20,922 nt of DNA from a virus, in IMG/VR virus record IMGVR_UViG_3300022929_000273, positions 1-20,922 of that record; one strand, written 5' to 3'. The position numbers and the translations under genes are program-made. This document shows positions 2,824-20,922 of the stretch, in pieces. Every line of letters begins with the position of its first letter. Positions within the stretch are counted from its first letter, which is position 1. The notes beneath the pieces are model-generated. The model saw only the letters and a program-made list of their open reading frames with translations. It was not told the origin of the DNA and did no database searches.

Positions 2824-2850
2824 TAATAAATACATATAATTATATAATAT
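2809..2850 (+). promoter_or_regulatory. AT-rich palindrome with possible -10 boxes before the scaffold gene
   Basis: The 33-base gap holds a perfect 12-base palindrome ATATAATTATAT at 2834-2845 and two TATAAT hexamers at 2835-2840 and 2843-2848. A TTTG (2809-2812) overlapping TTGAAC (2810-2815) lies 19 bases before the first hexamer. This could be a weak internal promoter or merely an AT-rich, unstructured translation leader. It does not fit the Bacteroidota TAnnTTTG -7 box, so the call is weak. Confidence 0.22.
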
Positions 2851-2856
2851 CTTATC

Positions 2857-4026: not shown

Positions 4027-4050
4027 TAATCCATTTAAAAATAATTAAAA
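4027..4050 (+). promoter_or_regulatory. A-rich translation leader of the capsid gene
   Basis: The 24 bases before the capsid ATG read as almost pure A/T, ending AAAAATAATTAAAA, with no GGAG-type box. In Bacteroidota such unstructured A-rich leaders with A at -3 and -6 are known to drive strong translation without Shine-Dalgarno pairing. The most highly expressed phage gene having the most A-rich leader here fits that. Confidence 0.45.
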
Positions 4051-5469
4051 ATGGCTTTAGCAAACACTGGTGCTGCACTACAGCATCTTACTCCACGTCC
4101 TGTTAAAGGATTGTTTGGGGACAACTACTTGTCTGTGGCTGACATGGACTTTACACAACAATTTCTTCCTGAAGTTTACGAAAAGGAAGTAGAGCGCTAC
4201 GGAAAGCGTACTGTAGGTGGATTCCTACGTATGGTTGGCGCTGAAATGCCAATGGCTTCTGACCGCGTTGTATGGTCTGAACAAGGCCGTTTGCACATCG
4301 CTTATGACGGTGTTAACTCAAACGCTGCTGGTTCTACCATCACTTTGACTGGATTGCCTACAGGTTCTGATACTTCACTTATCGGTGTTGGTCAAACTTT
4401 GGTTATCTCTAACGGTACTGTTACTGCAAAAGCTCGTGTAGATAGCATGGGAACTTTCACAAGTGGTGCTGGCGATACTTCTACTCAGGTAGTAAATATC
4501 AAAGTATACGGTGAAACAAGTGCTGTTCTTCCAACTGCATTGCGTAGCGCAAGCGGTACTTTGAACATCTTTGTATTCGGTTCTGAGTACGCTAAAGGAT
4601 CTGGCGATGTAGGTAACTCATTCGACTCTTCTTTCACTACTTTTGAGAACAAACCAATCATCTTGCGCGACAAGTACAATGTGAACGGTTCTGACGTTGC
4701 TCAAATCGGTTGGGTTGAAGTTACTACTGAAGCTGGTACTGGCGGTTACTTGTGGTACTTGAAGTCTGAGCACGAAGCTCGTCTACGTTTCGAAGACTAC
4801 TTGGAAATGAGCATGGTTGAAACTGAAAAAGCAGGTGCTGCTAGCATTGCTACAGGTGTTACAGGTTCTGAAGGTATGTTCGAAGCTATCGAAACTCGTG
4901 GTTTGGTTTACAACTCTACTGATTTCGGTGGTGCTAACGGTCTTGGTCAATTTGACGAAATCCTAGCTGAACTTGACAAGCAAGGAGCTATCGAAGAAAA
5001 CATGTTATTCTTGGATCGCGCTACTTCTTTGGGTATGGATAACATGCTTGCTGCTCAAAACTCTTACGGAGCTGGTGGTACTTCTTACGGTGTGTTTGAC
5101 AACTCAGCTGATATGGCGTTGAACTTAGGATTCTCTGGATTCCGTCGTGGTTCTTACGACTTCTACAAGACTGACTGGAAATACTTGAACGATTCAACTA
5201 CTCGCGGTTCTATCGGCGATATCGAAGGTGTTCTTGTTCCTGCTGGTACTTCTACTGTATACGATGAGCAATTGGGTACGAACATTTCTCGTCCATTCTT
5301 GCACATCCGTTACCGTGCTAACGAAGCAGAAGATCGTCGTATGAAGTCTTGGATTACTGGTTCAGTTGGTGGTAACTACACTAGCGCAGTTGATGAGATG
5401 AACGTACACTTCTTGTCTGAGCGTGCACTTTGTGTACAAGCAGCTAACAACTTCGTATTGTTGAAGTAA
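4051..5469 (+). CDS. Major capsid protein
   Basis: Main shell protein, expected HK97-like fold. The 472-aa protein starts MALANTGAALQHLTPRPVKG and has GFLRMVGAEMPMAS at about residues 57-70, then a beta-rich, Gly/Ser/Thr-rich stretch (about 88-190) that may be an inserted surface domain. A helix with EHEARLRFEDYLEMSMVETE (about 244-263) would be the long spine-like helix, and the C-terminal half ends in a beta/alpha domain. These motifs resemble capsid proteins of marine and crAss-like phages, to my recollection. Codon choice differs from its neighbours: Leu is mostly TTG or CTT, Gly GGT, Thr ACT, Ala GCT, as expected for a very highly expressed gene. It is followed by a strong terminator-type hairpin. 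The position after the scaffold is standard. Confidence 0.88.
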   Translation: MALANTGAALQHLTPRPVKGLFGDNYLSVADMDFTQQFLPEVYEKEVERYGKRTVGGFLRMVGAEMPMASDRVVWSEQGRLHIAYDGVNSNAAGSTITLTGLPTGSDTSLIGVGQTLVISNGTVTAKARVDSMGTFTSGAGDTSTQVVNIKVYGETSAVLPTALRSASGTLNIFVFGSEYAKGSGDVGNSFDSSFTTFENKPIILRDKYNVNGSDVAQIGWVEVTTEAGTGGYLWYLKSEHEARLRFEDYLEMSMVETEKAGAASIATGVTGSEGMFEAIETRGLVYNSTDFGGANGLGQFDEILAELDKQGAIEENMLFLDRATSLGMDNMLAAQNSYGAGGTSYGVFDNSADMALNLGFSGFRRGSYDFYKTDWKYLNDSTTRGSIGDIEGVLVPAGTSTVYDEQLGTNISRPFLHIRYRANEAEDRRMKSWITGSVGGNYTSAVDEMNVHFLSERALCVQAANNFVLLK

Positions 5470-5481
5470 GCTTATAATATT

Positions 5482-5522
5482 GTCCCCGGCTTCGGTCGGG
5501 GGCATTATTCTTTTATTTATTT
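5482..5522 (+). terminator. Intrinsic terminator after the capsid gene
   Basis: A 9-bp GC-rich stem pairs 5482-5490 (GTCCCCGGC) with 5495-5503 (GTCGGGGGC), closed by the very stable C-TTCG-G tetraloop at 5491-5494. Two of the nine pairs are G-T wobbles. It is followed by a T-rich run (ATTATTCTTTTATTTATTT). This is a classical rho-independent terminator, 12 bases after the capsid stop. In the middle of a one-way gene block it probably lets only part of transcription pass, or protects the 3' end of the capsid mRNA. Confidence 0.88.
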
Positions 5523-5536
5523 AATCTTATTATATC

Positions 5537-6391
5537 ATGGCAACAGCTAAAAAACCCGCAGCAAAAGCAGCTCCGGTTAAAAAAGAAACTACAGTAGAGG
5601 CTCCAGTAGCACCGGTTAATAAAATCGAGGTAACGCCTCCTACTCCTAAAAAACCAAAGTGGGAATATAAAGACCGCTTATACGAATTAACAGGCCGTAA
5701 AAAGCCTTTGGTATTTACACTACCCGCAGTGCATTCAGCTAAAAAACCTTTGCTTTGGTTTGACGAAGAAAAAGGTTATCAGCGTGAAATTAGATATGCT
5801 ACAAATCAGCGTTCTTGTTTTGTTGATGAGCAATCTGGGCCTGCAACACTTGGGCGCATCGTATTTAGAAACGGTGTATTGAATGTGCCAAAAGAAAATG
5901 TAGTGCTACAACAACTGCTATCTCTTTATCATCCATTCACAGCTAAAGGCGTTATTGAAGAATACAAGCCTGAAACAATTGCTGAAGACGAAATGGGGTG
6001 GATTGAGCTAGAGCTTGATGCAATGAATGCTGCAAAAGCAATGGATATTGACGAAGCAGAAGCAATCTTGCGTGTAGAATTGGGTTCTAAGGTATCTGAG
6101 ATGAGTTCTAAGGAACTTAAACGTGATCTCCTTGTGTTTGCCCGTCGTAATCCAGAATTGTTCATAGAACTAGCTAATGATGAAAACGTACATTTACGTA
6201 ACATCGGAATTAAAGCAACAGAACAAGGCTTGATTTCATTATCACAAGACAATAGAACGTTTAGCTACACTAGTACTGGACGTAAACTAATGACGGTGCC
6301 TTTTGATGAGCACCCATACTCAGCACTTGCAGCTTACTTCAAAACAGATGAAGGGATGGAAGTTCTGAATACAATTGAAAAACGATTATAA
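5537..6391 (+). CDS. Unknown conserved virion-type protein with K/A/P-rich N-terminus
   Basis: I do not recognise a function. The 284-aa protein begins with a low-complexity, basic tail (residues 1-42, mostly Lys, Ala, Pro, Val), much like DNA-binding or decoration-protein tails. A compact beta-rich part follows with FDEEKGYQREIRYATNQ (75-91), FVDEQSGPATLGRIVFRNG and a hydrophobic helix LQQLLSLYHPF. The middle has two acidic helices (about 150-190) and a helix KRDLLVFARRNPELFIELA (about 195-213). The last 47 residues, starting DNRTFSYTSTGRKLM at 238, have the look of a winged-helix end, but this is only an impression. It lies directly behind the capsid terminator and before the connector genes, so a head-completion, decoration or DNA-contacting role is plausible. 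No signal peptide or membrane segment is seen. Confidence 0.8.
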   Translation: MATAKKPAAKAAPVKKETTVEAPVAPVNKIEVTPPTPKKPKWEYKDRLYELTGRKKPLVFTLPAVHSAKKPLLWFDEEKGYQREIRYATNQRSCFVDEQSGPATLGRIVFRNGVLNVPKENVVLQQLLSLYHPFTAKGVIEEYKPETIAEDEMGWIELELDAMNAAKAMDIDEAEAILRVELGSKVSEMSSKELKRDLLVFARRNPELFIELANDENVHLRNIGIKATEQGLISLSQDNRTFSYTSTGRKLMTVPFDEHPYSALAAYFKTDEGMEVLNTIEKRL

Positions 6392-6397
6392 AACAAT

Positions 6398-6425
6398 AGT
6401 GGGGGTTACTGAGGTAGCCTCCACT
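6398..6425 (+). terminator. 12-bp hairpin between virion genes (weak terminator or mRNA stabiliser)
   Basis: 6398-6409 (AGTGGGGGTTAC) pairs over its full length with 6414-6425 (GTAGCCTCCACT) around a TGAG loop, with two G-T wobbles. The tail after it is only TTAATCACATAAAA, so it lacks a good T-run. It lies 7 bases after one stop codon and 17 bases before the next ATG. It may be a leaky terminator, an RNA-processing or stabilising structure, or both. Confidence 0.65.
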
Positions 6426-6441
6426 TTAATCACATAAAACT

Positions 6442-7128
6442 ATGAGCGTAAGCGTAGACACTGTTTATCAACGAGTATTAGCGATACTCAACAAAGAACA
6501 AAGGGGATATGTTACGCCTCAGGAGTTCAATCTATTTGCCAATCAAGCGCAGCTAGATATCTTTGAGCAATACTTTTACGACATCAATCAGTTCGGTCGT
6601 CTACACGGTAATGATACCGAGTACTCTGATATGCTCAACATCCTAAACGAAAAAATAAACTTATTTGAAGTTACGGCTGCAATGACCTACGCTGTTGGTT
6701 ATTGGTCAGCCCCGAATAATTTATACCGTATTGGTACAGTTATTTACGGCGGTAAAGAAGTGGAGCGCATTAACAACAATGAGTTCTTATATATCAATGC
6801 ATCGCCATTAACTAAACCTTCGAATGCACGCCCTGTATTTATCGCAAGTGCTAATGGATATAAAGTATACGGTGATAGCGAATTAACTACAGGGGTAACG
6901 TGTAATTATATTAAAAAGCCGGCCACTGTATCTTGGGCTTACACTACTGTGCTTGGTGAAGCACAATACAATGCTTCGAATTCAACTGACTTTGAACTGC
7001 ATCCTTCTGAAGAAACAGAATTAGTGATTAAGATACTAGAGCTTGCAGGTATTTCAACTAAAGAGCTACAGGTATATCAAATTGCGGCTCAAGAAGAAGC
7101 TAAAAACACTCAACAAGAAAAATCTTAA
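6442..7128 (+). CDS. Probable tail-connector (ring/adaptor) protein
   Basis: Likely one of the ring proteins that join the portal to the short tail. The call rests mainly on position and likeness to proteins of this place in marine and crAss-like phages, as I recall them. The 228-aa chain starts with helices holding NKEQRGYVTPQEFNLFANQAQ (about 17-37) and DIFEQYFYDINQF, followed by a beta-sandwich-like part (about 80-175) with LYRIGTVIYGGKEVERI and a helix near the C-terminus containing HPSEETELVIKILELAGI. A helical bundle plus a beta part is common in adaptor proteins. The last residues are Gln/Glu/Lys-rich. It begins just after the 6398 hairpin and ends 3 bases before the next gene, so the two are likely co-translated. 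Confidence 0.68.
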   Translation: MSVSVDTVYQRVLAILNKEQRGYVTPQEFNLFANQAQLDIFEQYFYDINQFGRLHGNDTEYSDMLNILNEKINLFEVTAAMTYAVGYWSAPNNLYRIGTVIYGGKEVERINNNEFLYINASPLTKPSNARPVFIASANGYKVYGDSELTTGVTCNYIKKPATVSWAYTTVLGEAQYNASNSTDFELHPSEETELVIKILELAGISTKELQVYQIAAQEEAKNTQQEKS

Positions 7129-7131
7129 TAA

Positions 7132-8049
7132 ATGGGGCTAATAAATCAAACTAACGAACAATACTATGACGGTGCTGATGGCATTTGGAATAGTGGAGAC
7201 GAAAACTACGGCGACTACCAGTTTGCTAGCCTCGACGATATTATAACAAACTTTATGATTGCTTATGTTGGTGAAGATAAAATCATCAGCAAGATTAAGC
7301 GTACGGACGTGATGTTCCATGCTAAGCGAGCAATTCAAGAGTTTAGCTTCGATGTATTCCCATCTGAAAAAGCGCAAGAGGTAGAAGTTGGCCCAGCGTT
7401 AAATATGATACTGCCTCAAGACTACGTTAACTATGTTAAGTTTTCTTACACTGATGACAGAGGTCTTGAAAGAATATTGTATCCAACGCGAGATACTTCT
7501 AATCCAATCGCTATTACTCAGGATGCTAACTACGAATACTTATTTGATAACAACGGTGAGATTATAGAAGCCGATGAATCGACCACATGGGAGCGCTATA
7601 AAGCTTCAGGTGTTGACCAATCAAATAATGTAAATAACGCTAACGACCTCACAGACAGCGAGTTATTCAACTTATACCGATATGGAAGACGCTACGGGAT
7701 TAGCCCTGAACATGCTCAATCTAACGGCGTGTTCTATATCGACAAATTAAAAGGCATTGTACACTTCAGCTCACACCTATCCGGTCAGATTGTAACACTT
7801 AAGTACATTAGCGACGGATTAGGTACAGATGCTGAAATGCGTGTACACAAATTAGCTGAAGAAGCTATCTATAGATACATTGCTCATGCTGTTATAGCTA
7901 CCCGAGCAAATACTCCTGAATACCAAGTTAACCGATTTAAGAGAGAGATGGTTGCGGCTAAGCGTAACGCTAAACTGCGCATGTCTAACCTTAAAATATC
8001 CGAGCTTGCCCAAGTAATGAGAAATCAATCTAAGTGGATTAAACACTAA
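7132..8049 (+). CDS. Probable tail-connector / tail tube-like protein
   Basis: A second connector-type protein of 305 aa. Its N-terminal region has helices with IIKTDVMFHAKRAIQEFSFD-like sequence (about 55-80), which is the pattern of T7 gp11 / P22 gp4-type adaptors. The middle has YRYGRRYGISPEHAQSNG from residue 182, then a beta hairpin (FYIDKLKGIVHFSS), and a stretch LKYISDGLGTDAEMRVHKLA. The C-terminal 60 residues are basic helices ending QSKWIKH. The start ATG (TTAATAAATG) is 3 bases after the previous stop and its own stop is 3 bases before the next ATG, so these three genes form one tight translation unit. Function is inferred from position and fold type. No catalytic motif is seen. Confidence 0.68.
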   Translation: MGLINQTNEQYYDGADGIWNSGDENYGDYQFASLDDIITNFMIAYVGEDKIISKIKRTDVMFHAKRAIQEFSFDVFPSEKAQEVEVGPALNMILPQDYVNYVKFSYTDDRGLERILYPTRDTSNPIAITQDANYEYLFDNNGEIIEADESTTWERYKASGVDQSNNVNNANDLTDSELFNLYRYGRRYGISPEHAQSNGVFYIDKLKGIVHFSSHLSGQIVTLKYISDGLGTDAEMRVHKLAEEAIYRYIAHAVIATRANTPEYQVNRFKREMVAAKRNAKLRMSNLKISELAQVMRNQSKWIKH

Positions 8050-8052
8050 TAT

Positions 8053-11000
8053 ATGGCTAAACTGCAGCATACATTTGTCCAGGGTAAAATGAATAAAGAC
8101 CTTGATGAAAGGTTGGTACCCAACGGGCAATATCGCGATGCTCAGAATATTCAGATAAGTACTTCTGAAGGCTCTGATGTAGGCGCTGTTGAGAATATAC
8201 TAGGTAATACTAAGAAGAACAATAAACCCGGAGGTGGAACATGGAATGCCAACTTTGGGTTAACTAATGCTGAATGTATTGGTGCAGTTCGTGATAGCCA
8301 GAATGAAAAAATATATTGGTTTGTAACTAGTGATAGCGTCGATGCTATACTCGAGTACGATCAGTCAGCGAATGTAATTGCTCCAGTGCTTGTTGATACT
8401 GGTAGCATATTAGACTTTAGTGCATCTAATCTTATTACTGGTATTAATATACTTAGTGGTATGTTGTTTTGGACAGACGATAACTCTGAGCCAAAGAAGA
8501 TAAGCATAAGCAGATTTAAAGCGGGCAGTACACAACCTGGTAGTGTATTAAATACAAAGACACAAGTATACGGTAGAGATTTTATTGAATCAGATATCAC
8601 TGTTATACTTAAGTCCCCAACTAAAGCGACTTCAGTTTTAGCTGAACCTTCGCTGGTAGGCGGAAACGGAACAGGCATTACCCCTGTAACTACAGTTCCT
8701 GTTAATTTTAATACAGGCACCGGCGGTTTTTATTCACTACCTGTAGGAAGTGTAGTGGCTATAGGTTGGGCACCATTTGTTGCACCTAGCTCTAGCTTTA
8801 ACGGTAGAAACGTTAGATTAACAACTAAGATAATAAATTCTGATAATACTACGGATGATTTTGAAGTGGTAGGTACATTGTCAAATTTAACGGCGCCAGA
8901 AGTGCCCGGGCAATATACAGAAGGTGATTTAACGATAGTTAGTATTTCATCTGATGTACCAAATTTAGAGTTGGCATGGGAAATGCTTTTAATCGAAGAG
9001 GAACCTATTTTTCAAAATGACTTTCCTAGATTTTCATATAGATGGAAATATTCAGACGGAGAATACTCTACATATGCGCCTTTTTCCGAAGCTGCGTTTG
9101 TACCAAATAAATTTGACTACGACACTGTAGAGGCGCACAACCTAGGCATGAATAATTTTGTGCGCAAAATAACACTTAGTAACTTTGAAACACCCCCCGC
9201 TAATGTTGTTGATGTTGAGGTGCTTTACAAGGGTGTGTCATCGAACAATGTATACAACCTTGAGACATTTAAGCTAAGTGATGGGGCGTTAACCTCATTC
9301 GTTATTACAACAGAGCTTCTTGGCAATGTAATTGAAAGTGCACAGCTGCTAAGACCTTGGGACAATGTGCCCCGCAAAGCTAAAGCGCAAGAGGTTATTG
9401 GTAATAGAATAGTCTACGGGAATTACTTGCAAAACTACACTATAGATGATACTATAGGCCTTGCAGGAGGGCAGGTTAATACAGCTCACGCTGCAAATTC
9501 ATTAGGCGAAGAATCTGTAAAGTCTAATAGAACATATCAGATAGGTGTAACATTTATAGATAAGTTTAATAGAGAGTCACCTGTATTTACAAATAAAGAC
9601 GGAGCACAAAATGTTCTTCCCACTAAATCCGTTAATAGCAATGCCTTAACAGCCAGTGTATCATCAACCGCACCAAGCTGGGCATCGGCTTACAAATATT
9701 ATGTAAAGGATCCGTCGCCTGAATATTATAACTTAGTGCTTGATCGTGTTTATGATGCTCAGGACGGTAACGTATGGCTAAGTTTTCCTTCTAATGAACG
9801 AAACAAAATTTCAGAGGGCGAATATATATTTTTGAAAAAGCAACACGGTGCCGACGTACCAGTAGTAGCCGAAAATAAATATAAAATATTAGAAATAAAC
9901 AATGAGGCGCCTGAGTTCATAAGCTCGTTGCCTACAGCTGTAGCAACCTCTGGTATATATGTAGACGCAGGTAATTTTGTTTTAGGTAATTCAAAGATAA
10001 CCTTCCACGCTCATTTATACTCTATAATACCGGAATTTCATAAAGAATTTAACAGTGCGGACAGTATACAATTTTATACAGACACTCAAATATCTAAGAG
10101 GTATGAAATAATAAAAGGAGGGCCTAATGGGGAGATAGATGCGCACGGCAGCCCGTCACACGCTGTTTTTGAAGCTATATTAGCAGAAGGTATTTCAGAT
10201 GCTGATACTTGGCTTACAGCTTACACAACGGAAACACAAATTAGCGCTACTCTATATAAAAATGTTAATGAAGGCTTACCTGAATTTCAGGGTAGATTTT
10301 TTATTAAAATCCCTAGGAATTCTGCTTTTATAACAAATGTTGAATTACCGTCGCAAAATAGTGCTAATTTTAGAGTTTCTGTGCAAACAAGAAATAATGA
10401 CTTGTATGAGAACATGCCGGCTGGTCTTAACTCCGCAAGTGATTATTTAGCTTTCGGAGATACCAATGCAAGCCCGTCAGTACCGATAAACACACCGGCC
10501 GACGGATTCTCTGACTTTACATTAGTTTCTTCTGCTTCCCCGACTGGTTCAACCTTAACTACATCGACGTTTAATGCGGTTGAAATAGGCGCTAAAATTA
10601 GATTTAAAAGGAATGGAAACAACGGCGAGGTGTATACCGTTGCTAATGTTACGGAATCGTCTTACACTAGAGTAATTGGATCAAAAACGTTTGGCTTTAA
10701 TGTAAAGCAAGTTACTATTGATAGGAATTACAGCGATACGCTTAGCGGAACGCCAACACGACTTCAAATATTAGATTTACAGGGGACAGGTACGTTTATT
10801 ACTAGAGACCCAGGTATATTCGAAACAGAGCCTGCAGATTTGGCAGATTTAGACATTTACTATGAAGCTAGTGATGCATTAGCGATTGCTAACTTAAGTA
10901 ATACTGTAGCTTTAAACTGGTGGAATTGTTACTCATTTGGCAATGGTGTTGAGTCTGACCGCATTAGAGATGATTTTAATGCACCAAGAATTGGCAAAGG

Positions 11001-12309
11001 GGTTAGAGTATCTTCTACACTTGAAACGCCATACGAAGAAGAAAGACGCGGTTCTAGTATGATATTCAGTGGTATATTTAATTCTATTAGCGGAATTAAC
11101 AATACTAATCAGTTCCTTACTGCAGAGAACATAACTAAAGATTTAAACCCAATATACGGTACAATACAAAAGCTTCATGCACGTGACACTGACTTAGTTG
11201 CATTGTGTGAGGACAAGTGTTTTAAAATATTGGCTAATAAAGATGCATTGTTTAATGCTGATGGTAACACAAACGTTACATCAAATAACAATGTACTTGG
11301 CCAATCAATTCCATATGTAGGCGAGTTTGGTATATCTAAAAATCCTGAATCGTTTGCATCGTACGGATTTAGAGCTTACTTTACAGATAAATCCCGAGGC
11401 ACGGTCATTAGACTATCTAGGGACGGCATTACGGAGATTGCAGACAAAGGTATGTCTGATTACTTCCAGGATAAATTAAAGTCCGCTACAGGCACTCTAA
11501 TTGGCTCGTATGACGAACGTGCTGGCTCATACAATATTAAAATTGGTAATGAGCAGACATCGTTTAAAGAAAAAGTTAATGGTTGGTCAACAAGATTAAC
11601 TTATTCACCGGAATTTGCTGTTTCATTAAACAATGAATACTATAGCTTTAAAGCTGGTGAAATTTGGGAACATTCTAATAGTACAAGAGCAAACTTTTAT
11701 GGTGCACAACAACCGACAACTGTTACATCTGTACTCAATGATGCCCCAACAAGCATTAAGAACTTTAAGACTTTGTCGTACGAAGGGGATGCCGGGTGGG
11801 CAGCCACTATCACAACAAACGAACAAGAAGGAACTATAGATTCTTGGAAGAAAAAAGAAGGTATATACTTTAACTTTATTAAAGGTGTTAATGATACATG
11901 GGATAGTCAGAACCAAACCGGTACACTAAATACTAAAGAGTTTTCGGTTCAAGGTCTTGGTGAAGTTGACTATGTAAACGTTATCGGTAACACGTTTGAG
12001 TTAGGCTTAACAAATGGAGTAAATACTTCTTTACAAATTGGTGATACGGTTTACTACCAAGATCAGGCCGAGGATGTGATAATTATTGGAGAATGTTTAG
12101 CTATAACAGAAAATTCAATAACGGTTAATAACGACGACCCAACTGTTGATGACCCAGAAGACCAAGACTTCTTGTTCTTTGTTAAAGACAATCGCGTTAA
12201 TACGTCTGGTCTACTTGGCTATTATGCTGATGTAGAGCTTTCTATTACGAGTGGCGAGAGAAAAGAGCTGTTTGCTGTAAACTCTGAAATATTTATCAGC
12301 AGCGAATAA
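8053..12309 (+). CDS. Large tail / nozzle (stabilisation-type) protein
   Basis: A 1418-aa, beta-rich protein, probably the tail nozzle (muzzle) or tail stabilisation protein that closes the DNA channel. The N-terminus GKMNKDLDERLVPNGQYRDA followed by QNIQISTSEGSDVGAVENIL is a well-kept signature that I associate with large tail proteins of marine phages and, in pattern, P22 gp10-like beta-propellers. Further conserved-looking blocks are NRIVYGNYLQNYTIDD, KYYVKDPSPEYYNLVLDRVY, YFTDKSRGTVIRLSRDG (about 1109-1125), and the very end GLLGYYADVELSITSG with ELFAVNSEIFISSE. Between about residues 190-315 and 640-980 the sequence is looser, Ser/Thr/Asn-rich and may hold inserted domains. Two Cys (C1052, C1056) sit as CEDKC in the propeller-like region. 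No signal peptide, protease or lysozyme motif is seen. It follows the connectors at 3 bases' distance. Confidence 0.78.
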   Translation: MAKLQHTFVQGKMNKDLDERLVPNGQYRDAQNIQISTSEGSDVGAVENILGNTKKNNKPGGGTWNANFGLTNAECIGAVRDSQNEKIYWFVTSDSVDAILEYDQSANVIAPVLVDTGSILDFSASNLITGINILSGMLFWTDDNSEPKKISISRFKAGSTQPGSVLNTKTQVYGRDFIESDITVILKSPTKATSVLAEPSLVGGNGTGITPVTTVPVNFNTGTGGFYSLPVGSVVAIGWAPFVAPSSSFNGRNVRLTTKIINSDNTTDDFEVVGTLSNLTAPEVPGQYTEGDLTIVSISSDVPNLELAWEMLLIEEEPIFQNDFPRFSYRWKYSDGEYSTYAPFSEAAFVPNKFDYDTVEAHNLGMNNFVRKITLSNFETPPANVVDVEVLYKGVSSNNVYNLETFKLSDGALTSFVITTELLGNVIESAQLLRPWDNVPRKAKAQEVIGNRIVYGNYLQNYTIDDTIGLAGGQVNTAHAANSLGEESVKSNRTYQIGVTFIDKFNRESPVFTNKDGAQNVLPTKSVNSNALTASVSSTAPSWASAYKYYVKDPSPEYYNLVLDRVYDAQDGNVWLSFPSNERNKISEGEYIFLKKQHGADVPVVAENKYKILEINNEAPEFISSLPTAVATSGIYVDAGNFVLGNSKITFHAHLYSIIPEFHKEFNSADSIQFYTDTQISKRYEIIKGGPNGEIDAHGSPSHAVFEAILAEGISDADTWLTAYTTETQISATLYKNVNEGLPEFQGRFFIKIPRNSAFITNVELPSQNSANFRVSVQTRNNDLYENMPAGLNSASDYLAFGDTNASPSVPINTPADGFSDFTLVSSASPTGSTLTTSTFNAVEIGAKIRFKRNGNNGEVYTVANVTESSYTRVIGSKTFGFNVKQVTIDRNYSDTLSGTPTRLQILDLQGTGTFITRDPGIFETEPADLADLDIYYEASDALAIANLSNTVALNWWNCYSFGNGVESDRIRDDFNAPRIGKGVRVSSTLETPYEEERRGSSMIFSGIFNSISGINNTNQFLTAENITKDLNPIYGTIQKLHARDTDLVALCEDKCFKILANKDALFNADGNTNVTSNNNVLGQSIPYVGEFGISKNPESFASYGFRAYFTDKSRGTVIRLSRDGITEIADKGMSDYFQDKLKSATGTLIGSYDERAGSYNIKIGNEQTSFKEKVNGWSTRLTYSPEFAVSLNNEYYSFKAGEIWEHSNSTRANFYGAQQPTTVTSVLNDAPTSIKNFKTLSYEGDAGWAATITTNEQEGTIDSWKKKEGIYFNFIKGVNDTWDSQNQTGTLNTKEFSVQGLGEVDYVNVIGNTFELGLTNGVNTSLQIGDTVYYQDQAEDVIIIGECLAITENSITVNNDDPTVDDPEDQDFLFFVKDNRVNTSGLLGYYADVELSITSGERKELFAVNSEIFISSE

Positions 12310-12340: not shown

Positions 12341-13012
12341 ATGTTCGGAGATATATTTGAAGGCGCTGTTAGGTTTGGCGCATCATATGCCGGTGGCAAA
12401 AAGCGACTAGAACGACAGAAGCAAGCTCAAGCTGAGTATGATGTATCTATGGCTGACTACTTTGCTCAGGATACTTCAAACTTATATTCAGGTCTTCAGA
12501 ACACAATGGAGGACCTCACTATAAACACACAAGCGGCGGATTTTGCAGCGGCACAGCAAGCACAAGGTTTAGCTAATATAATGGGTCAAACAAGACAATC
12601 AGCTGGTGGCAGTGGGATTGCTGCATTGGCGCAGTCTTTAGCTAATCAACAAGCTCAATCAGCACAAGCAGCATCAGCAAGTATTGGTCAACAAGAAGCT
12701 GCTAATCAAAGAATGGCCGCAAGTGAAGCGGGTAGATTGCAAATGGCAGAGCGAATGGGTGAAGGGCAATCAAGAGCATTGCAAGCACAGTTACTTGGTG
12801 AGCAATTTCAAATTAATGCTAATGAGCTCGCATCGTCAGAAGAAGCAATACAAGCAGCACAAGCAGCTAGGATACAAGGTTTAGGACAAATTGTTGGGGG
12901 AGTTGGCAATTTAGGTACAGCTGCAATGGGTCTCCCCACAGAAACATTAGGCAAGCTAGGTAATTTAGGTATCGGTCTAGCAGACGCTGGTAATGCATTA
13001 GGTTTAAGATAA
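12341..13012 (+). CDS. Probable internal virion (ejection) protein, A/Q/G-rich
   Basis: A 223-aa protein with a hydrophobic start (MFGDIFEGAVRFGASYAGG) and a long Ala/Gln-rich helical middle (about 60-180) with AQQAQ- and AAQAA-like steps. Its Gly/Leu-rich C-terminus (about 176-223) holds IVGGVGNLGTAAMG and LGNLGIGLADAGNALG. Such small A/Q-rich proteins with amphipathic or membrane-active ends are known as ejection proteins (T7 gp14-like) that insert in the host envelope. Its place after the tail gene and before two larger internal-type genes matches the gp14-15-16 order of T7-like phages, though sequence identity is not claimed. The stop TAA overlaps the next ATG as TAATG (13010-13014), indicating translational coupling. 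Confidence 0.7.
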   Translation: MFGDIFEGAVRFGASYAGGKKRLERQKQAQAEYDVSMADYFAQDTSNLYSGLQNTMEDLTINTQAADFAAAQQAQGLANIMGQTRQSAGGSGIAALAQSLANQQAQSAQAASASIGQQEAANQRMAASEAGRLQMAERMGEGQSRALQAQLLGEQFQINANELASSEEAIQAAQAARIQGLGQIVGGVGNLGTAAMGLPTETLGKLGNLGIGLADAGNALGLR

Positions 13013-14133
13013 TGGCTAAGCAACAAGGATATGGCGTTGTAAGCGCCGCGGCAAGAGTTTCAAATGTTCAGGGAAGCTTTCAGGACCGAGGAGAACAGTT
13101 TATGACTGGATATAATAAATCCTTGCAAAAGAAAAAAGAACAAGAACAAAAGAATAAAGAAACGCAATCTAGGGTTAACTCTTTGATGGGTGGGTTTAAG
13201 AATGACATCGATGTTCTTAAATTTAAACCTGAAGACCAAACTTTAGTTAAAAATACTATTGTAGGTTGGCGTAATCAATATGCTGAGGCAGCTAACATTG
13301 CAGCTAAAATTCAGGATAAGAGTAGCGCTCAATACCAAGAGCAGATGGACATTATGAACGGTATTGAAAACCGTATGTCTAACCTAAAGAGCAATCTAGA
13401 CCAACTTGCTGCATTTAAAGGTGAATACGCAGATAATATTAAGGCAGGCACATATTCTAATGCTGGACTTAATAGTGCTCCATTAATGCAAGGTGAGGTT
13501 ATGCTTAATAATGCTATTGGTGGTATAAACGACAACGGCGATTTAACATGGAACAGCAAAGAAGCTGGAGAGTTTAACTTCCAAGATTACGAAATGCCTT
13601 TTGAAAAAGCTGTTGGTTTAGCCACTGCATTAGGTAGAATTGCTGATCCAATTAGAAGACAAAAAACACCTCTTGATAATCTTCAGCGAAAAGAAATTAG
13701 AGAGAAGGTTGAAGGTCTTGCAAGTAATCCTAAAGCATTAGCTAGTCTTATATCTGATAGCGATATAGCTGCTTTCGATTTTAGCAACATCGATCCTGAA
13801 GACCCGAATGCTAGAGAAGAAGTAGTTGATTTACTTGTTCAATCTATTTACAATCTTAGAGGTTCTGGTTTAGCACCAACAGATAAAACAACTGCAACTG
13901 GTGGGTCTGCTAAAAAAGATAGAACACCTGAGTATGTAGAAAAGCTTGATGCTATTTTTGAGATGCCTGGTGTACCAAAAACAATTGGTGGTGTAAGAGT
14001 GTATTATGACCCTGATGTTCCAATGACCGACCCAGAAGGTGAGCGCATTCAAAAAGGTGGCTTCGTATATAAAGGTGGTGGCCAAACAATCGTACTTAGC
14101 TACGATGAAATGATTGACTTTTTAAATTCTTAA
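13012..14133 (+). CDS. Probable internal virion protein, function unknown
   Basis: A 373-aa protein that starts by a TAATG overlap with the preceding gene. Residues 1 to about 150 are helical, with a Lys/Gln/Glu run (KSLQKKKEQEQKNKETQ, about 36-52) and coiled-coil character. A more compact part (about 150-290) includes YEMPFEKAVGLATALGRIAD. A flexible Thr/Gly/Ser linker (about 293-308) leads to a small beta-rich C-terminal end (GGVRVYYDPDVP, KGGFVYKGGG, IVLSYDEM). I know no enzyme motif in it. Its size, helicity and place between the small A/Q-rich protein and the giant protein suggest it belongs to the ejected internal core, comparable by position with T7 gp15. It ends 6 bases before the giant gene starts. 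Confidence 0.7.
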   Translation: MAKQQGYGVVSAAARVSNVQGSFQDRGEQFMTGYNKSLQKKKEQEQKNKETQSRVNSLMGGFKNDIDVLKFKPEDQTLVKNTIVGWRNQYAEAANIAAKIQDKSSAQYQEQMDIMNGIENRMSNLKSNLDQLAAFKGEYADNIKAGTYSNAGLNSAPLMQGEVMLNNAIGGINDNGDLTWNSKEAGEFNFQDYEMPFEKAVGLATALGRIADPIRRQKTPLDNLQRKEIREKVEGLASNPKALASLISDSDIAAFDFSNIDPEDPNAREEVVDLLVQSIYNLRGSGLAPTDKTTATGGSAKKDRTPEYVEKLDAIFEMPGVPKTIGGVRVYYDPDVPMTDPEGERIQKGGFVYKGGGQTIVLSYDEMIDFLNS

Positions 14134-14139
14134 TATAAT

Positions 14140-17100
14140 ATGAATACAAACGATTTAACAGCTGGCCAAATTGAATTCTTGGCCAAAAAGCTTGGCATGA
14201 CTGTTGAAGAGTATAAGCTTTCCCAATCTGGCCTGGGAAAGACGACCGGTTCCGAGGAAATAACTCCACCGACGGAACCAGAAAAGAAGGCGGCCGCTGG
14301 GGATTCCAGTTTGGCCGATACTTCATTGGAGTTACAAGATCTTAATCCTGTAGATAAAGCGCTTAAGAGATTAAGCACCGTAAACATATCTCAAGACTAT
14401 TTAGACATTGAAAAAAATATAGATACCCCTAAAAAGGTACCTGTAAAGGAAATGACACCTAAGGGCATATTAATGGCTACAGGTGAATTCTACGATGTAT
14501 ATGCTTACGACGACTTTATTGCACCCGCTAAACAAAAGTTAGGCGAAGGAGCAAAGCCTGAGGATATTACAGCCGAAGCAAAGGCTATGTATCTTAAGAC
14601 TGCAAAATCTAATTTGTTTAACTCAAAGGTTGAAGAAATTTTAGAAGATTTTGATGACGAGATTTACAGTCCTCTTGGTCGCTTGAAGAAATATATGACA
14701 ACTGCATTTGCTGGTGCTGACCTATCGGAAGGCGCTGCGCAAAAGATAGAGTTGCAAAAAGAAATTGAAAAAAGCCGTCAAAACGCTATTGCAGAAATTG
14801 ATAGGCTTGCTAAAAATAGAGTTGCTGAAGAAGCATACTTAGAAACATCGGCAATTAAGTTAAATCAAATTGGCGAGAAATATAAGAAAGACCCTGCATC
14901 TGTTACTCCTCAGGAGATAGAAGAATACAAAGAACTTAGCCAAACCTATAGTGAAGTTTACGATTCTTATAAAGCTACTAATGAAGATTTAGCTAAAACA
15001 GTTGAAACAGGTCAAAATTTAGAAGAGCTAGTAGACTTAACAGCAAGGTCTTATGATAACTTAGATATCGCTGTAGGACGTGTTAGTGCTGCTGCATTAA
15101 ACGCTAGTGGTAACATACTTAACTTTGCTAGAGAAATATCACCAGATAAGATTAAAGAGCGTGTTACAGGAGAAGAAGCTACAGGGTATGTACCTTTTTA
15201 TATAGCTGGTATTCCGATAAAAGCAAGTTTAAATCTTTTGTCTACTACAGGTGATGCGCTTGTAAATGCTTCTGAAGATATTACAGGTAAAATTGAAAAA
15301 CGCCAAGAGCTAGGTAAGGTTAAATCAGTAGAAGACTTTTTAGAGTTTGGTTTAGATTTATTTACTGAGCAAGCGGTTAATACTGCTATTACTGCTGGTG
15401 TACCTGGAGCTGGTCTAGGTTTAATTGCCGCTAGTGCATCTGGCGAGAAGTTTCGTACAATGCAAATAGAAATGGATAATGGTGAAGAAATATCACCATT
15501 ACGTTTTTATACTGCGGGTATTATGTACGGTGCTGGTGAATACATTACTGAGAAAATAGCATTAGACCAGTTTTTAACAGCGAAAAAAAGTATTAAAAAA
15601 TCGTTTGACTTATCTCGCACAGACCTTACTCAGAATCCAATGACTACCCTTAAAGCTTTAGAAACTTGGGGTACTGGTTTGAACAAAGAGGGTAGAGCGG
15701 AGCTTGGATCTCAGCTAATAAGCAACTTTGCAGATAGATGGGTATTAGATAAAAAAGAAGTTGGTATTTGGGACGGAATTGGAGAAGCATACCTTTCAGG
15801 AGCAGTTATGTCTGGTCTTGGATTTGGTGCACCTTCTTTAATGACTAATATATATTCAGCGGCAACAACCGGTAATGAACAAGCAGTAGCGAATAGAAGA
15901 AGTACTCGTGTAATTGAGATTACAAATAAGATTAATGACTTGCAGTCTGGTAATATTAATGACCCGCAAGTTCAAGAAGCTATTGGTGCGTTGCAAGAAG
16001 AAGCAGATGGTTTAATTAAAGAAAACCTTGCTTCAATGAAATTAGCTGAAGCTCGTATAGATGAACTTTCTAGAGCTGATAAGCGTATTTTGTTAAATAT
16101 TGATAGTCAAGTATATAAGGCTAAAGGTGCTATTGATAGAATTAACGCTAATGAAAATCTTTCGAAATCTGAAAAAGAAAGTCTTATTGCAAAACATGCA
16201 ACTAATATTACAAGCTTAGAATTTAGAAAAGAAGACATTTTAGATGCCAGTTTTGAATCCAAAGCAAAAGCAAAGGCTAAAGCATTCCAGATTAGAACAG
16301 CGGTATCAAAAGACCTTAGATTTTCTTATATTAATTCTAATACTATAGAAGAAGGATTAGAAGACGCTATAAAAACTGTTAATGAAAGTGACCTTAGTGA
16401 TGAAACAAAAACTAGGCTGCTTCAAGAAATAGCGGAAACAAAAGCAGAAGTTGCAGAGGCTAAAGGTAAAGGAGAAGCGAGAAATGGTGTTTACTTAGGT
16501 GCTGAATTTGGATTACCTATTGCTATTGTTTCCGAAGCTGGTGCCAAAATAAATCGTTCTGTTGCCGCTCACGAAATTGCGCATGCTACATTGTTTAAAA
16601 AGCTATTACAAGCTGATACAAATATAATAGGTCTTGCTAATGATTTAAGAAGCTATATGGAACGTACTTACGGCCGTATCGCTATAGAAAAATTTGAGGC
16701 ATTTGATCGTGATTATTCCGATGAAACAAACCAGGCTACAAAGGCAGAAGAGTTAATGAATGCTGTTGTAGAATTGTCAAGACATTTTGATTTAAAAACC
16801 ACAGCTAATAAAACTATACTTGGAAAAATATTTAATCGTTTCAATAAAATTGACATGGAAGGCGCCAATACTTCCGAGATTAAAAATGGTAAAGATGTAT
16901 TAGCTGCTATTGAATCTTTTAATGCTGCATTTGACACAGGGGTAATATCTGGACTAGCAGCTAAAATATTTAAAGGCGAAGTAAAAGCAAAGATCGCTAA
17001 GTTTAAAGAACAAGAGCAAAAGCTTCGTGGTGGTAGGAAGTTTAGTATGAGTAAATCTGCTGAACGTGCTAAAGCTCAACTTGAAAAAATGCAAGCAGAA

Positions 17101-20100
17101 GGGTATGACCCAAATAGCATTGAATTATATGAAGCACTTCAAGGTATGGTTGGGGCTCAGCTCTCAAAATACCAAGCTAAAGGTCTTCAAATCACAGATG
17201 AAGAAGAAGCCGTCTCTGATGTTGTATCTCGTTTATATACTCAAAGAGATGTAAACAAATTTGATGGTAGAGGTTCTGCTTATGGTTATTTGAATGGCCG
17301 TATTAAATTCCGTATTCTAGATGCGTTTAAAGCAAATCCAGTATGGGTTGAGAACTTTGAAAATATTGATGTTGAAGGATTAGAAGGTAAAGCTACACGC
17401 CAGGTTGCTACAGAAGAAGTAGAAACAGAAGTTGTACAACCAGCTGTTATTGAGACAGTTACTGAACCTAGTATAAGTACTAAACCGGAATATAAAAACC
17501 TTATTAGAAGACGCGTAGTTGAACCTGAGGTTATTAAATCTATTGAGGGTAAAGTACTTAGAACCATACGTCTTTTAAAATCTCGCATTGATGCTGAGGT
17601 AAGTAAGAATGTTACCGTCACTCCTATTATTAAGGAGATTAAGAATGAAATGGGTAAGCAGGCTGACATTGACCTTAAAACAGCAATGGGCGGTAAAAAA
17701 GACGGCGAACTTCGTAAATTCTTGTTGCGCAATAAAGCGGCTATTCTTGAAAACATGTCTACCACATGGTTAAGCACGGCTATGCCTATTGCTATTCAAA
17801 AAAGCGTTGATGGTGTATGGACAAGTGATTGGAAAGGTAAAAAGATTGATAGAGAAAAAACAACTACTGATTTAGCTGGTAGAACTTCTGGTGCCGACTT
17901 AGTAAGACGTTTACCTAGAGCTGCTATTGTTATATCTGATGCAGACTTTTTAGCCACTATATTACAACCAGATGGCAATCCTATTAGAGGTAAAAAAGAA
18001 TCTTTAGCTAAAGCAATGGCTGAAGAATTGTCATTTGATATTATTAAAGAAGCACTTCAAGATCCTAATAGCCCTATAGCTCAAGCATTTATTGAAAATC
18101 AACAGCGTAAAGGAGTTGAAAATGCTGAAAACTTAGGGCCAGAATTTGTAAGACAGTCTGAAAGAGGCAATGTTAAATATTCTATCACTAAGAAGCAGCA
18201 AGACAATTATAAAAAATCTACTGTTGGTGAAATTCTTTTTAATATTGATGCAAAACGTAAATTTTATAATAACACAATAGATGAAACGTTAAAGGGACAA
18301 TTTGGAAAAGAAAACGGCACATACAATCTTAAAAACGAAGAAGATTTATATAAATTTATAAATATATTTAAAGAAAAGATTGCTCCTTATTTCCCAAAAG
18401 AATTTTTCTTCCGCGAAAATTCTCTTTATACAAGTTTAATGGGGAATGCTGATAGCCACGGTATGAGAAAAAATACCGAACAATTTAAAAAGTTCCGTGA
18501 TATTATTAAAGCGGAAATAGGGCTAGATGAAAAAAATAATTCTATACCTGGGGTTAAGGCTATAAAATGGGGTGAGCCTCTTAAAAATTTAGAAGGATAC
18601 CGCATTAAAGGTAAAAATGGAAAACTTCTTACGCAAGAAAATATTTTAGAAACAGAAAAAGAATTAGAGGGATACATGAAAGCGGGGGATGTGCTCCGCT
18701 ATAATAGAATGGTTGAAACCATGCATAGAGAAATGTGGTTAAGATTTAATTCTATTATTCAAGAAGAAATGAAAGACCCTAATTCAAACGGCGAAGCAGC
18801 AAGATTTATAGGAACTTACATAGCTTCTTCACACAGTGATTCGAATCATCCGCAAAGAATGGGTGCAGGAATAGCTGGTTATTCTAAAGGATATGGTACG
18901 TCTGAAAATATTATAAAAGAGCATGCAAGCCCAAACTCTTTTATTGGCAGAATTTTGCTAGAAACAGCGCTGCAAAAACCAAATCCACTTACAGATTTTG
19001 AAAGAGATTATAGATTTATTACAAGAAATTATGTTCTAATAGCTTTCAAAAAAGAATTTAATAAAATATTAGATGCAACAAATCTTAAGGAGGCTATGCC
19101 TGCTGGCTATGATCCTATAAATGGAAATTATGGCGAAAGATATTTTAATAAAGAAACCGGATTAAACCCAGAGGAGCTTATTTTAATGTCTGGCAACTCA
19201 TATGCTTCGGTAGCTGGTGTTGATGAAAACGGTAAATACATTAGCGATAAGCTAATTGACTTTATTAAAAATACATCGGACGAAAGGTTTGCAAAAATTA
19301 TTAAAGACTTTAAAAGCAAAAATGAAATAGTAAAATCTAAAATATCTAGCGCATTAGCTCAAACTGCTTTAATAGAAGATAGATTTGTCAACGGTCAAAG
19401 AAAGTATTCTAAAAGCTTCCCTCCAGCACAAGTATTAAACAATGAGTTTAATAACATGCTTGAGCGCGGCAGTGGCATATCCGCTGAGCAACAGTTTTCT
19501 AGAATTAGAGGTCAGCTAGCCGGTAAAGGTAAAGGCCGATTTAAATTCTTTATTGCACCCGGTGCAGACGATTTTAGAGGATTAGTGCATTACGCTTTTG
19601 CTGGTAAAGGAGCTCAAGGAGATAAGGACATGGCGTTCTTAGAAAAGAACCTTATGGAACCTTACTTTAAAGGTATTGCTGCTATCGATACTATGCGCCA
19701 AGTAATTAAGCGCGAGTTTAAGGTTGTTACAAAAGAATTCCAAGCAGAATATAAAATGCTTAGTGAGCCTATTCCGGGTAGCCCATTTACATATGACCAC
19801 GCTCTTCGCGTTTATATGTGGGCATCACAAGGCACTAAAATTCCTGGGCTTAGTGCTGAGGACCAAGCGTTATTAGAAAATGCAATCTTAGATAACCCTC
19901 AATTAGCCGACTTAGGTGAGGCGCTAATGATTGTTGGCCGCAAAGAAACATGGCCTAAACCGTCCGAATTTTGGGAAGGTGATTCTGTATTAGCAGACCT
20001 TAACAGCATGACCGAAAAAATTGGGCGTAAAGAAATTTTAGCTCAATTTATTACAAATGCCGATGCCCTCTTTAGCGAGGAAAACCTTAATAAAATTGAA

Positions 20101-20922
20101 GCAATCAAGGGTCGTGCACATCGTGAAGCCATTGAGGACGCTTTATATTCTATGAAGAGTGGGGTAAACCGCCCTTCTGGTGCAAACCGACAAATGAATA
20201 AATGGTTGAATTGGATTAATGGTTCTACCGGAGCAATCATGTTCTTCAACCGTCGTTCTGCATTGCTGCAGATGTTATCGTTCACCAACTTTATTAACTG
20301 GTCTGATAACAATCCTGCTAAAGCAGCGATGGCATTTGCTAATCAAGCTCAATACTGGAAAGACTGGGTATATATATTTAATTCAGATAAACTAAAAGAA
20401 CGTCGTGGCGGTTTGAAGCAGGATGTTAGTGATTCTGAAATTGCTCAGGTTGCAGGACAATCTAAAAATAGCCCACAAGCAATTCTTGCTTACCTATTAA
20501 AAATTGGTTTTACACCAACACAGATAGCGGATAGTATGGCAATTGCTACTGGTGGTGCAAGTTATTACCGTAACCGTGTAAATACTTATTTAAAACAAGG
20601 TAAGTCGGTTAAAGAAGCTGAAGAGCAAGCTTTCATGGATTTCAGTAAAGTATCCGATGAAGCACAGCAGTCATCTGATCCAGCATTGGTATCACAACAG
20701 CAGAGAAGCGTTTTAGGACGCCTTGTGCTAGCTTTTGCGAATACTCCTATGCAATACACTCGTTTGATGAAAAAGGCTGGTCAGGATCTTATAAATGGCC
20801 GTGGTGACTGGAAGACAAACGTAAGTAAGATTGCTTATTACGGATTTGCACAAAACTTTATATTTTCAGCTTTGCAGAGTGCATTATTTGCTTTAATGTT
20901 TGACGACGAAGAGGAAGACGAA
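14140..20922 (+). CDS. Giant polyvalent internal virion protein (5' complete, 3' open)
   Basis: The frame from ATG 14140 runs 2261 codons to the window edge with no stop, so the true protein is longer. I translated it throughout. Layout: short N-terminal helix MNTNDLTAGQIEFLAKKLGM; GC-rich Pro/Thr/Glu linker (about 28-62); helical and coiled regions (about 90-330); hydrophobic or amphipathic stretches (about 348-370, 408-435, 548-572); another coiled region (about 590-790); metallopeptidase core HEIAH at 811-815; a sigma-70 region-2-like stretch (about 1008-1067); a further domain (about 1090-1340); an AT-rich module (about 1348-1755); and a long conserved-looking block (about 1800-2261) ending in a hydrophobic helix and an acidic patch. 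This many-domain build matches 'polyvalent proteins' of phages, thought to be packed in the head and delivered with the DNA. The start follows TTAATATAAT, 6 bases after the previous stop. Confidence 0.85.
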   Translation, partial: MNTNDLTAGQIEFLAKKLGMTVEEYKLSQSGLGKTTGSEEITPPTEPEKKAAAGDSSLADTSLELQDLNPVDKALKRLSTVNISQDYLDIEKNIDTPKKVPVKEMTPKGILMATGEFYDVYAYDDFIAPAKQKLGEGAKPEDITAEAKAMYLKTAKSNLFNSKVEEILEDFDDEIYSPLGRLKKYMTTAFAGADLSEGAAQKIELQKEIEKSRQNAIAEIDRLAKNRVAEEAYLETSAIKLNQIGEKYKKDPASVTPQEIEEYKELSQTYSEVYDSYKATNEDLAKTVETGQNLEELVDLTARSYDNLDIAVGRVSAAALNASGNILNFAREISPDKIKERVTGEEATGYVPFYIAGIPIKASLNLLSTTGDALVNASEDITGKIEKRQELGKVKSVEDFLEFGLDLFTEQAVNTAITAGVPGAGLGLIAASASGEKFRTMQIEMDNGEEISPLRFYTAGIMYGAGEYITEKIALDQFLTAKKSIKKSFDLSRTDLTQNPMTTLKALETWGTGLNKEGRAELGSQLISNFADRWVLDKKEVGIWDGIGEAYLSGAVMSGLGFGAPSLMTNIYSAATTGNEQAVANRRSTRVIEITNKINDLQSGNINDPQVQEAIGALQEEADGLIKENLASMKLAEARIDELSRADKRILLNIDSQVYKAKGAIDRINANENLSKSEKESLIAKHATNITSLEFRKEDILDASFESKAKAKAKAFQIRTAVSKDLRFSYINSNTIEEGLEDAIKTVNESDLSDETKTRLLQEIAETKAEVAEAKGKGEARNGVYLGAEFGLPIAIVSEAGAKINRSVAAHEIAHATLFKKLLQADTNIIGLANDLRSYMERTYGRIAIEKFEAFDRDYSDETNQATKAEELMNAVVELSRHFDLKTTANKTILGKIFNRFNKIDMEGANTSEIKNGKDVLAAIESFNAAFDTGVISGLAAKIFKGEVKAKIAKFKEQEQKLRGGRKFSMSKSAERAKAQLEKMQAEGYDPNSIELYEALQGMVGAQLSKYQAKGLQITDEEEAVSDVVSRLYTQRDVNKFDGRGSAYGYLNGRIKFRILDAFKANPVWVENFENIDVEGLEGKATRQVATEEVETEVVQPAVIETVTEPSISTKPEYKNLIRRRVVEPEVIKSIEGKVLRTIRLLKSRIDAEVSKNVTVTPIIKEIKNEMGKQADIDLKTAMGGKKDGELRKFLLRNKAAILENMSTTWLSTAMPIAIQKSVDGVWTSDWKGKKIDREKTTTDLAGRTSGADLVRRLPRAAIVISDADFLATILQPDGNPIRGKKESLAKAMAEELSFDIIKEALQDPNSPIAQAFIENQQRKGVENAENLGPEFVRQSERGNVKYSITKKQQDNYKKSTVGEILFNIDAKRKFYNNTIDETLKGQFGKENGTYNLKNEEDLYKFINIFKEKIAPYFPKEFFFRENSLYTSLMGNADSHGMRKNTEQFKKFRDIIKAEIGLDEKNNSIPGVKAIKWGEPLKNLEGYRIKGKNGKLLTQENILETEKELEGYMKAGDVLRYNRMVETMHREMWLRFNSIIQEEMKDPNSNGEAARFIGTYIASSHSDSNHPQRMGAGIAGYSKGYGTSENIIKEHASPNSFIGRILLETALQKPNPLTDFERDYRFITRNYVLIAFKKEFNKILDATNLKEAMPAGYDPINGNYGERYFNKETGLNPEELILMSGNSYASVAGVDENGKYISDKLIDFIKNTSDERFAKIIKDFKSKNEIVKSKISSALAQTALIEDRFVNGQRKYSKSFPPAQVLNNEFNNMLERGSGISAEQQFSRIRGQLAGKGKGRFKFFIAPGADDFRGLVHYAFAGKGAQGDKDMAFLEKNLMEPYFKGIAAIDTMRQVIKREFKVVTKEFQAEYKMLSEPIPGSPFTYDHALRVYMWASQGTKIPGLSAEDQALLENAILDNPQLADLGEALMIVGRKETWPKPSEFWEGDSVLADLNSMTEKIGRKEILAQFITNADALFSEENLNKIEAIKGRAHREAIEDALYSMKSGVNRPSGANRQMNKWLNWINGSTGAIMFFNRRSALLQMLSFTNFINWSDNNPAKAAMAFANQAQYWKDWVYIFNSDKLKERRGGLKQDVSDSEIAQVAGQSKNSPQAILAYLLKIGFTPTQIADSMAIATGGASYYRNRVNTYLKQGKSVKEAEEQAFMDFSKVSDEAQQSSDPALVSQQQRSVLGRLVLAFANTPMQYTRLMKKAGQDLINGRGDWKTNVSKIAYYGFAQNFIFSALQSALFALMFDDEEEDE
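14163..14185 (+). repeat. Inverted repeat just inside the giant gene
   Basis: TGGCCAA (14163-14169) and TTGGCCA (14179-14185) are perfect inverted copies with a 9-base spacer containing GAATTC. A hairpin this close to the start codon (23 bases in) could slow translation start. It may also be chance, since both arms encode ordinary residues (AGQ and LAK). Confidence 0.4.
16480..16776 (+). other. Zincin-type metallopeptidase region inside the giant protein
   Basis: Residues 811-815 read HEIAH within RSVAAHEIAHATLF, the HExxH zinc-binding signature: two His ligands and the catalytic Glu. It is preceded by hydrophobic strands (VYLGAEFGLPIAIVSEAG), as in zincins, where an edge strand lies before the active helix. 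About 55 residues on, KAEELMNAVVELS (868-880) offers E870 or E871 as a possible third, gluzincin-like ligand. Metallopeptidases of this kind are common within phage polyvalent proteins. The substrate is unknown: candidates are self-cleavage of the giant chain or host proteins. Confidence 0.68.
17161..17370 (+). other. Sigma-70 region-2-like stretch inside the giant protein
   Basis: Residues about 1016-1062 contain DEEEAVSDVVSRLYTQRDV followed by FDGRGSAYGYLNGRIKFRI and LDAF. The order acidic helix, then 'KFDxxRGS-aromatic-x-x-aromatic-L', then a basic helix with 'LDAF' resembles region 2 of sigma-70/ECF sigma factors, which binds RNA polymerase and the -10 DNA. No clear region 4 was seen afterwards. 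This is motif resemblance by eye, not a search result. Confidence 0.35.
19522..20922 (+). other. Conserved-looking C-terminal block of the giant protein
   Basis: From about residue 1796 the protein becomes compact and dense in aromatic and charged residues: FFIAPGADDFRGLVHYAFAG (1803-1822), NADALFSEENLNKIEAIKGR, MFFNRRSALLQMLSFTNFIN, GFTPTQIADSMAIATGGASY and NGRGDWKTN. I recall very similar strings in giant proteins of marine phages, but know no proven function. It ends at the window edge with a hydrophobic helix (about 2235-2254, GFAQNFIFSALQSALFALMF) followed by DDEEEDE. Confidence 0.5.

Follow-up and report, generated by a model that had tools for sequence, protein, structure and literature searches.

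The window, by which we mean the whole 20,922-base stretch of viral DNA analysed here, is an entire IMG/VR record that carries a virion gene cassette on its forward (+) strand, in the order terminase end, portal, capsid, muzzle, a 223-aa protein, a 373-aa protein and, last of all, a giant open reading frame. The portal (400-2823) matches phrog_6547 at E 5e-159 and the putative capsid protein (4051-5469) matches phrog_13704 at E 2e-98, and together with further head and tail genes (400-8049) they place the cassette among virion genes. Next comes a muzzle protein (8053-12309) with crAss_MUZ and crAss_MUZ_C domains, followed by an Ala/Gln-rich protein of 223 aa (12341-13012), which is homologous to the phi38:1 virion structural protein gp099 (profile E 5e-8), and by the 373-aa protein (13012-14133), the immediate upstream neighbour of the giant, which has 48 family members in related loci. 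Against NCBIfam, the 223-aa protein scored weakly (22.5 bits versus a cut-off of 130) for SseD, a type III translocon protein, and this match is probably compositional. Identity of the portal is 53-54% with its counterparts in MW202828 and Maribacter phage Panino and ~43% with those of the Flavobacterium elemo phages, and on the strength of these flavobacterial affinities the host is likely a flavobacterium. It should be noted that a crAss-type muzzle here co-occurs with a portal closest to those of Pervagoviridae/Pachyviridae/Elemovirus-like flavophages, a combination that links those groups to Crassvirales tails.

The giant frame itself starts with an ATG at 14140, runs for 2,261 codons (14140-20922) and is still open where the contig ends, which means that the 3' end of the gene lies beyond the record. 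Because complete relatives stop ~200 residues past the end point of the window, we estimate a full length of ~2,460 aa, and the 68 full-length relatives range from 2,252 to 3,383 aa with a median of 2,810. Its nearest relative (L002) is 86% identical at the amino-acid level and reads through the same frame without interruption, although its contig likewise breaks off within the giant gene. In every module, dN between the two is well below dS (dN/dS about 0.05-0.3), and this excess of synonymous over amino-acid change identifies the giant as a maintained coding gene. Thus, the uninterrupted frame of at least 2,261 codons described in the original prediction is not a chance frame, and the coiled coils proposed for it agree with the long-helix character predicted for the protein.

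When IMG/VR was scanned with the final 362 residues of the giant, 80 loci from uncultured viruses were recovered, most of which retain the muzzle-223-373-giant cassette. A corresponding scan of bacterial and archaeal genomes returned only 12 loci, all of them from metagenome-assembled bins whose taxonomy is mixed, and the host is therefore not fixed by these loci. Searching 50,697 phage records by tblastn with the giant, including its conserved C-terminal domain, gave no match at E 1e-5, and scans of Pfam, PHROG and NCBIfam with the whole giant gave no match either. The same gene order is nevertheless found in six phages (phi38:1, phi19:3, elemoA, MW202828, Panino and Calle_1), in each of which a set of smaller genes, several with virion-protein annotations, separates the muzzle from a single giant downstream. 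These syntenic giants comprise 1,691-3,859 residues in the five phages for which length was computed, and in four of the six (phi38:1, phi19:3, elemoA and Calle_1) the giant is called structural, taking the GenBank annotation as deposited. Two syntenic giants carry misleading annotations: that of L003 (741-12320; 3,859 aa, two HExxH motifs) is labelled a "reticulocyte binding/rhoptry protein", while that of L004 (23229-28718), which has an LPD38 match below the cut-off, is labelled a "tRNA methyltransferase". Across the family, the architecture comprises an N-block, an HExxH zincin, a sigma-2-like module, a conserved block, an exchangeable enzyme slot and a helical C-terminal domain.

The N-block (aa 193-705; 14716-16254) connects the giant to cultured phages by sequence, being homologous to the giants phi38:1 gp101, phi19:3 gp129 and elemoA gp21 (blastp E 4e-12 to 1e-9). 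At its core lies a Gly/Ala-rich hydrophobic region (~aa 392-600; 15313-15939) that is common to other giants: a four-sequence profile of this core, limited to the first two iterations since the third drew in reversed decoys, matched 34 giants below 1e-3, including that of Panino at 1.6e-4, with the best decoy at 0.83. The membrane-active-looking stretches of the original prediction are only moderately borne out: they can be placed in this hydrophobic block, but in the window giant the mean hydropathy of every 19-residue stretch stays at or below 1.5, a value that one such stretch exceeds in each of the phi38:1, phi19:3 and elemoA giants.

Downstream of the N-block is a zincin-like metallopeptidase region (aa 740-960; 16357-17019), in which the motif HEIAH occupies aa 811-815 (16570-16584) and Glu871 (16750-16752), invariant in 26 aligned members, corresponds to the expected third zinc ligand. 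The metallopeptidase core proposed earlier is therefore borne out by its motif and its invariant glutamate, with catalysis being predicted, and no peptidase family scored above its Pfam cut-off in this region. Of 68 full-length giants, 67 contain a single HExxH, where shuffled sequences give an expectation of 0.51, and the zincins that fill this position across the family fall into at least three sequence types. The region is also the fastest-changing module, with only 57% identity between the window and L002 as compared to 94-98% for the later modules (dN 0.35 and dS 1.19 over 16357-17019), a divergence that suggests either recombination or rapid change. HExxH is missing from the giants of phi38:1, phi19:3 and Panino, from which it follows that the zincin is not needed for a role in the virion. 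We infer that the zincin processes the chain on which it resides: it is nearly universal and always located on that same chain, which fits the processing role proposed for the zincins of polyvalent proteins (PMC5512222). That it instead cuts host proteins or virion partners is possible, if doubtful; its rapid change and its several sequence types are what would be expected of an enzyme with a changing target.

The stretch that follows (aa 996-1065; 17125-17334) resembles region 2 of sigma-70 factors. PF04542 (Sigma70_r2) is its top Pfam family, and the window match (E 0.0016) spans profile positions 1-67 of 71. The match is sub-threshold, with the module scoring 18.5-18.6 bits against a curated cut-off of 24 bits; 5 of 24 members were matched, the best at E 3.9e-4, and every match in a giant fell below that cut-off. 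Across 25 related virus records, a scan with PF04542 picked out this module in giant frames, solo sigma genes of about 251-261 codons and a single stray. A search with the sigma module alone yielded 33 loci, all in long frames, 32 of which carry an HExxH 134-223 aa ahead of the module. In the structure model of the middle region (aa 640-1365; pLDDT 70), the predicted aa 966-1068 (model residues ~327-429) have fold matches that are almost all sigma factors, with Z 5.7-6.5, which is below Z 8, and rmsd mostly 2.2-4.5; among them are SigE (8b3z; Z 6.3, 2.5 Å, 72/74 residues) and SigA domain 2 (4x8k; Z 5.7). Foldseek E-values of the middle model were >0.4, and a search of PDB sequences with the sigma-2 profile found no sigma match. 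Aligned profile to profile with the solo sigma factors of relatives, the module falls in the right register with a weak score of 21.4 (P 0.013), above all 20 shuffles (highest 19.9). From the sub-cut-off sequence match and the predicted fold together, we consider it probable that the stretch is homologous to sigma region 2, and the sigma-like stretch named in the original prediction is indeed present in this form.

Separate sigma factors also occur beside the giant in some relatives. L088, L089, L090 and L091 (records G017, G022, G004 and G020) are sigma-70 family factors of 251-258 aa in which region 2 is joined by what appears to be a region 4 and which, on reading, look like complete sigma factors, and further giant-bearing records contain similar solo sigma matches.

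What the module might do once at the polymerase can be read in two ways. If it acts as a sigma factor, it would start phage early transcription. The other reading is that it is a decoy or shut-off factor, which would occupy the sigma-2 site of host RNA polymerase and direct no promoter use. Only region 2 was detected in the giant, a segment scan with E values up to 5 having yielded nothing for Sigma70_r4, and the full-type sigma encoded separately in some relatives could supply the promoter use. Against this, inspection by eye suggests that ECF-like residues spanning regions 2.2 to 2.4 are partly retained, and overall we regard a pure decoy as somewhat unlikely.

The sigma-like module is followed by a "KDGEL" conserved block (aa 1115-1350; 17482-18189), which was found in 37 sequences and is modelled with pLDDT of about 90 in parts, and then by a slot (aa 1360-1740; 18217-19359) at which modules are exchanged among relatives. 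The version in the window is found in about 25 relatives, while in others the slot is occupied by a HAD phosphatase and/or a zeta-toxin-like kinase (Pfam Zeta_toxin, E 1e-15 in relatives). Counted over the 80 giants, a HAD motif is present in 50 and a zeta-type P-loop in 11. In some relatives, such as L038 (from giant aa 1999) and L086 (from giant aa 1980), the zeta-toxin-like P-loop kinase apparently lies inside the HAD phosphatase, between the first two HAD motifs; it is inserted 30-33 residues after HAD motif I and ahead of the LTAR motif, which is the cap position.

The remainder of the frame (19360-20922) encodes the first ~520 of the ~718 residues of a conserved, all-helical C-terminal domain. 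Identity to the family member L008 is 38-94% across 53 others. No other part of the family is as conserved, and the model is helical throughout (pLDDT 65). The large uncharacterised end block of the original prediction does exist as a conserved domain, but it is not one more effector. In a viral fold library, the first matches of the model are marine proteins of 40-45% identity, one of them named UDP-N-acetylglucosamine kinase (zeta-toxin activity), and the next, at 10-16% identity, are polyvalent, LPD, ART-PolyVal and MuF proteins. These distant matches also include the giants of Gundel_1 and elemoC, both structural proteins (10-16% identity). Since hhalign of the C-terminal profile against the giants of five phages detected no homology, it is the fold search alone that speaks for the C-terminal pattern seen by eye to be shared. 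PF18857 (LPD38) was found neither in the window nor in most relatives, Panino alone having a match, which was below the cut-off, and no curated polyvalent or LPD Pfam domain exceeded its cut-off in the window giant. Fold matches of the model in the PDB are mostly to single long channel helices and were judged non-specific, and the C-terminal profile had no relevant match among PDB sequences. We propose that this domain probably serves packaging and ejection, which makes it a candidate delivery signal.

An ejection role for the C-terminal part raises the question of whether the giant could be a purely structural protein like T7 gp16, forming a trans-envelope channel, with its middle domains being periplasmic or mere spacers. 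The succession of a small, a medium and a giant gene resembles T7 gp14/15/16, the PDB matches of the C-terminal model include the ejectosome of PhiM1 (8vb2 chain A; 170 residues at Z 5.4 and 5.4 Å) and the ejectosome tunnel of T7 (Z 3.9), and "Internal virion protein D" is among its weak viral fold matches. However, these Z scores are within the range that the tool flags as non-specific for helical models, and a structural role leaves both the exchange of kinase and phosphatase modules and the sigma-2 module unexplained. As an account of the whole chain it is unlikely, although as a role for the C-terminal part it is compatible with the explanation that we prefer. Finally, the giant is most improbably a virion RNA polymerase or associated subunit of the crassvirus or N4 type, since, despite a size and position that match the crassvirus cargo proteins gp47/gp49/gp50 (PMC10172136) and the fusion of N4 virion polymerases to metallopeptidases (PMC5512222), no DxDxD or DFDxD motif exists in the window protein (scanned up to its last ~200 residues, which relatives cover) or consistently in relatives, no polymerase was matched in Pfam, PHROG or NCBIfam, and a sigma-2 module would sooner serve host polymerase.

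The explanation that we favor, at a probability of about 0.72, is that the giant is a virion-carried polyvalent protein that processes itself, binds host RNA polymerase through its sigma-2 module and carries an interchangeable effector in its slot. According to this model, the giant would be made late, at the same time as head and tail proteins, would be loaded into the head as cargo and would leave it behind the 223-aa and 373-aa proteins of the cassette. Packaging and passage through the envelope would be the task of the hydrophobic N-block and the helical C-terminal domain. Inside the cell or en route, the zincin would cut the chain into functional parts, whereupon the sigma-2-like module would bind host RNA polymerase and either start phage early transcription or draw polymerase off host genes, while the slot ahead of the C-terminal domain would contribute whichever effector it carries. 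Packing into the virion and delivery are probable in light of the synteny, the homologies of the N-block and the 223-aa protein and the order of crassvirus cargo genes. Head packing and ejection had been proposed in the original prediction, and both the position of the gene and its homology to annotated virion proteins favor them, the argument being one of comparative genomics. The more specific proposal that a virion-delivered, protease-processed sigma-2 module captures host RNA polymerase before any phage gene is expressed is tentative, and we put it a little short of an even chance. An anti-host action of the giant is likewise something that we infer. The original prediction of a delivered multi-tool protein was right in kind and is partly supported. 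A marine phage protein family present in dozens of uncultured viruses combines protease, sigma-like module and exchangeable effectors in a single chain that is probably delivered, which makes it testable how phages lacking a polymerase of their own take charge of host transcription during the first minutes of infection and whether the zincins in such chains process them.

Among known systems, the giant is best compared with the polyvalent proteins. Polyvalent proteins have been proposed to be injected with the DNA, are encoded beside virion genes and often include a zincin proposed to process them, and a jump-start of transcription or replication has been suggested as their purpose (PMC5512222). 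The window giant is similarly a huge multidomain chain encoded among virion genes (portal, capsid and muzzle cassette), with putative LPD-type helical regions and predicted injection. Several unrelated activities are predicted on the one polypeptide (zincin and sigma-2-like, plus HAD and kinase in relatives), the zincin, which is frequent but not obligatory in such proteins, is represented by HEIAH at aa 811 and E871, and the exchangeable effectors include zeta-toxin-like kinases, as in polyvalent proteins (PMC5512222). The domain order, the near-universal single zincin, the exchangeable enzymes of relatives and the location as last gene of the cassette all fit a polyvalent protein, as the original prediction had anticipated. 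What differs is the sigma region-2-like module, as "sigma" occurs 0 times in that description (PMC5512222), and no fusion of a polyvalent protein to a sigma factor is described in the titles and abstract openings of the papers returned by an open-access search for the two together, which is not proof of novelty. The combination of a protease, a sigma-like module, a swappable slot and a conserved tail domain appears to be undescribed so far.

With phi38:1 gp101, phi19:3 gp129 and elemoA gp21, the giant shares the N-block and a position after the muzzle and smaller virion genes, whereas its C-terminal domain has no detectable sequence homology in those giants, no sigma module was found in them and the phi38:1 and phi19:3 giants are without HExxH. 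The muzzle of the window has crAss_MUZ domains and precedes the putative cargo genes, just as in PhicrAss001 gp45-gp50 (PMC10172136), and mass spectrometry of virions from a crassvirus has detected the cargo proteins encoded after its muzzle gene (PMC10172136). The giants of crassviruses are RNA-polymerase-associated, while the window giant has no polymerase motif. Like the ejectosome core proteins of T7 and PhiM1, it belongs to a putative three-protein ejection cassette of rising size and has a weak C-terminal fold resemblance, but no sequence similarity to them was found and the Z scores are too low to claim membership. The N4 virion RNA polymerase proteins are also giant virion proteins that combine a metallopeptidase with delivery into the cell, which is predicted for the window giant, except that the latter has a sigma-like module in place of the polymerase. 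If this is true, the delivered sigma-2 would represent a sigma-based counterpart to the injected polymerase of N4 and the injected Alt of T4.
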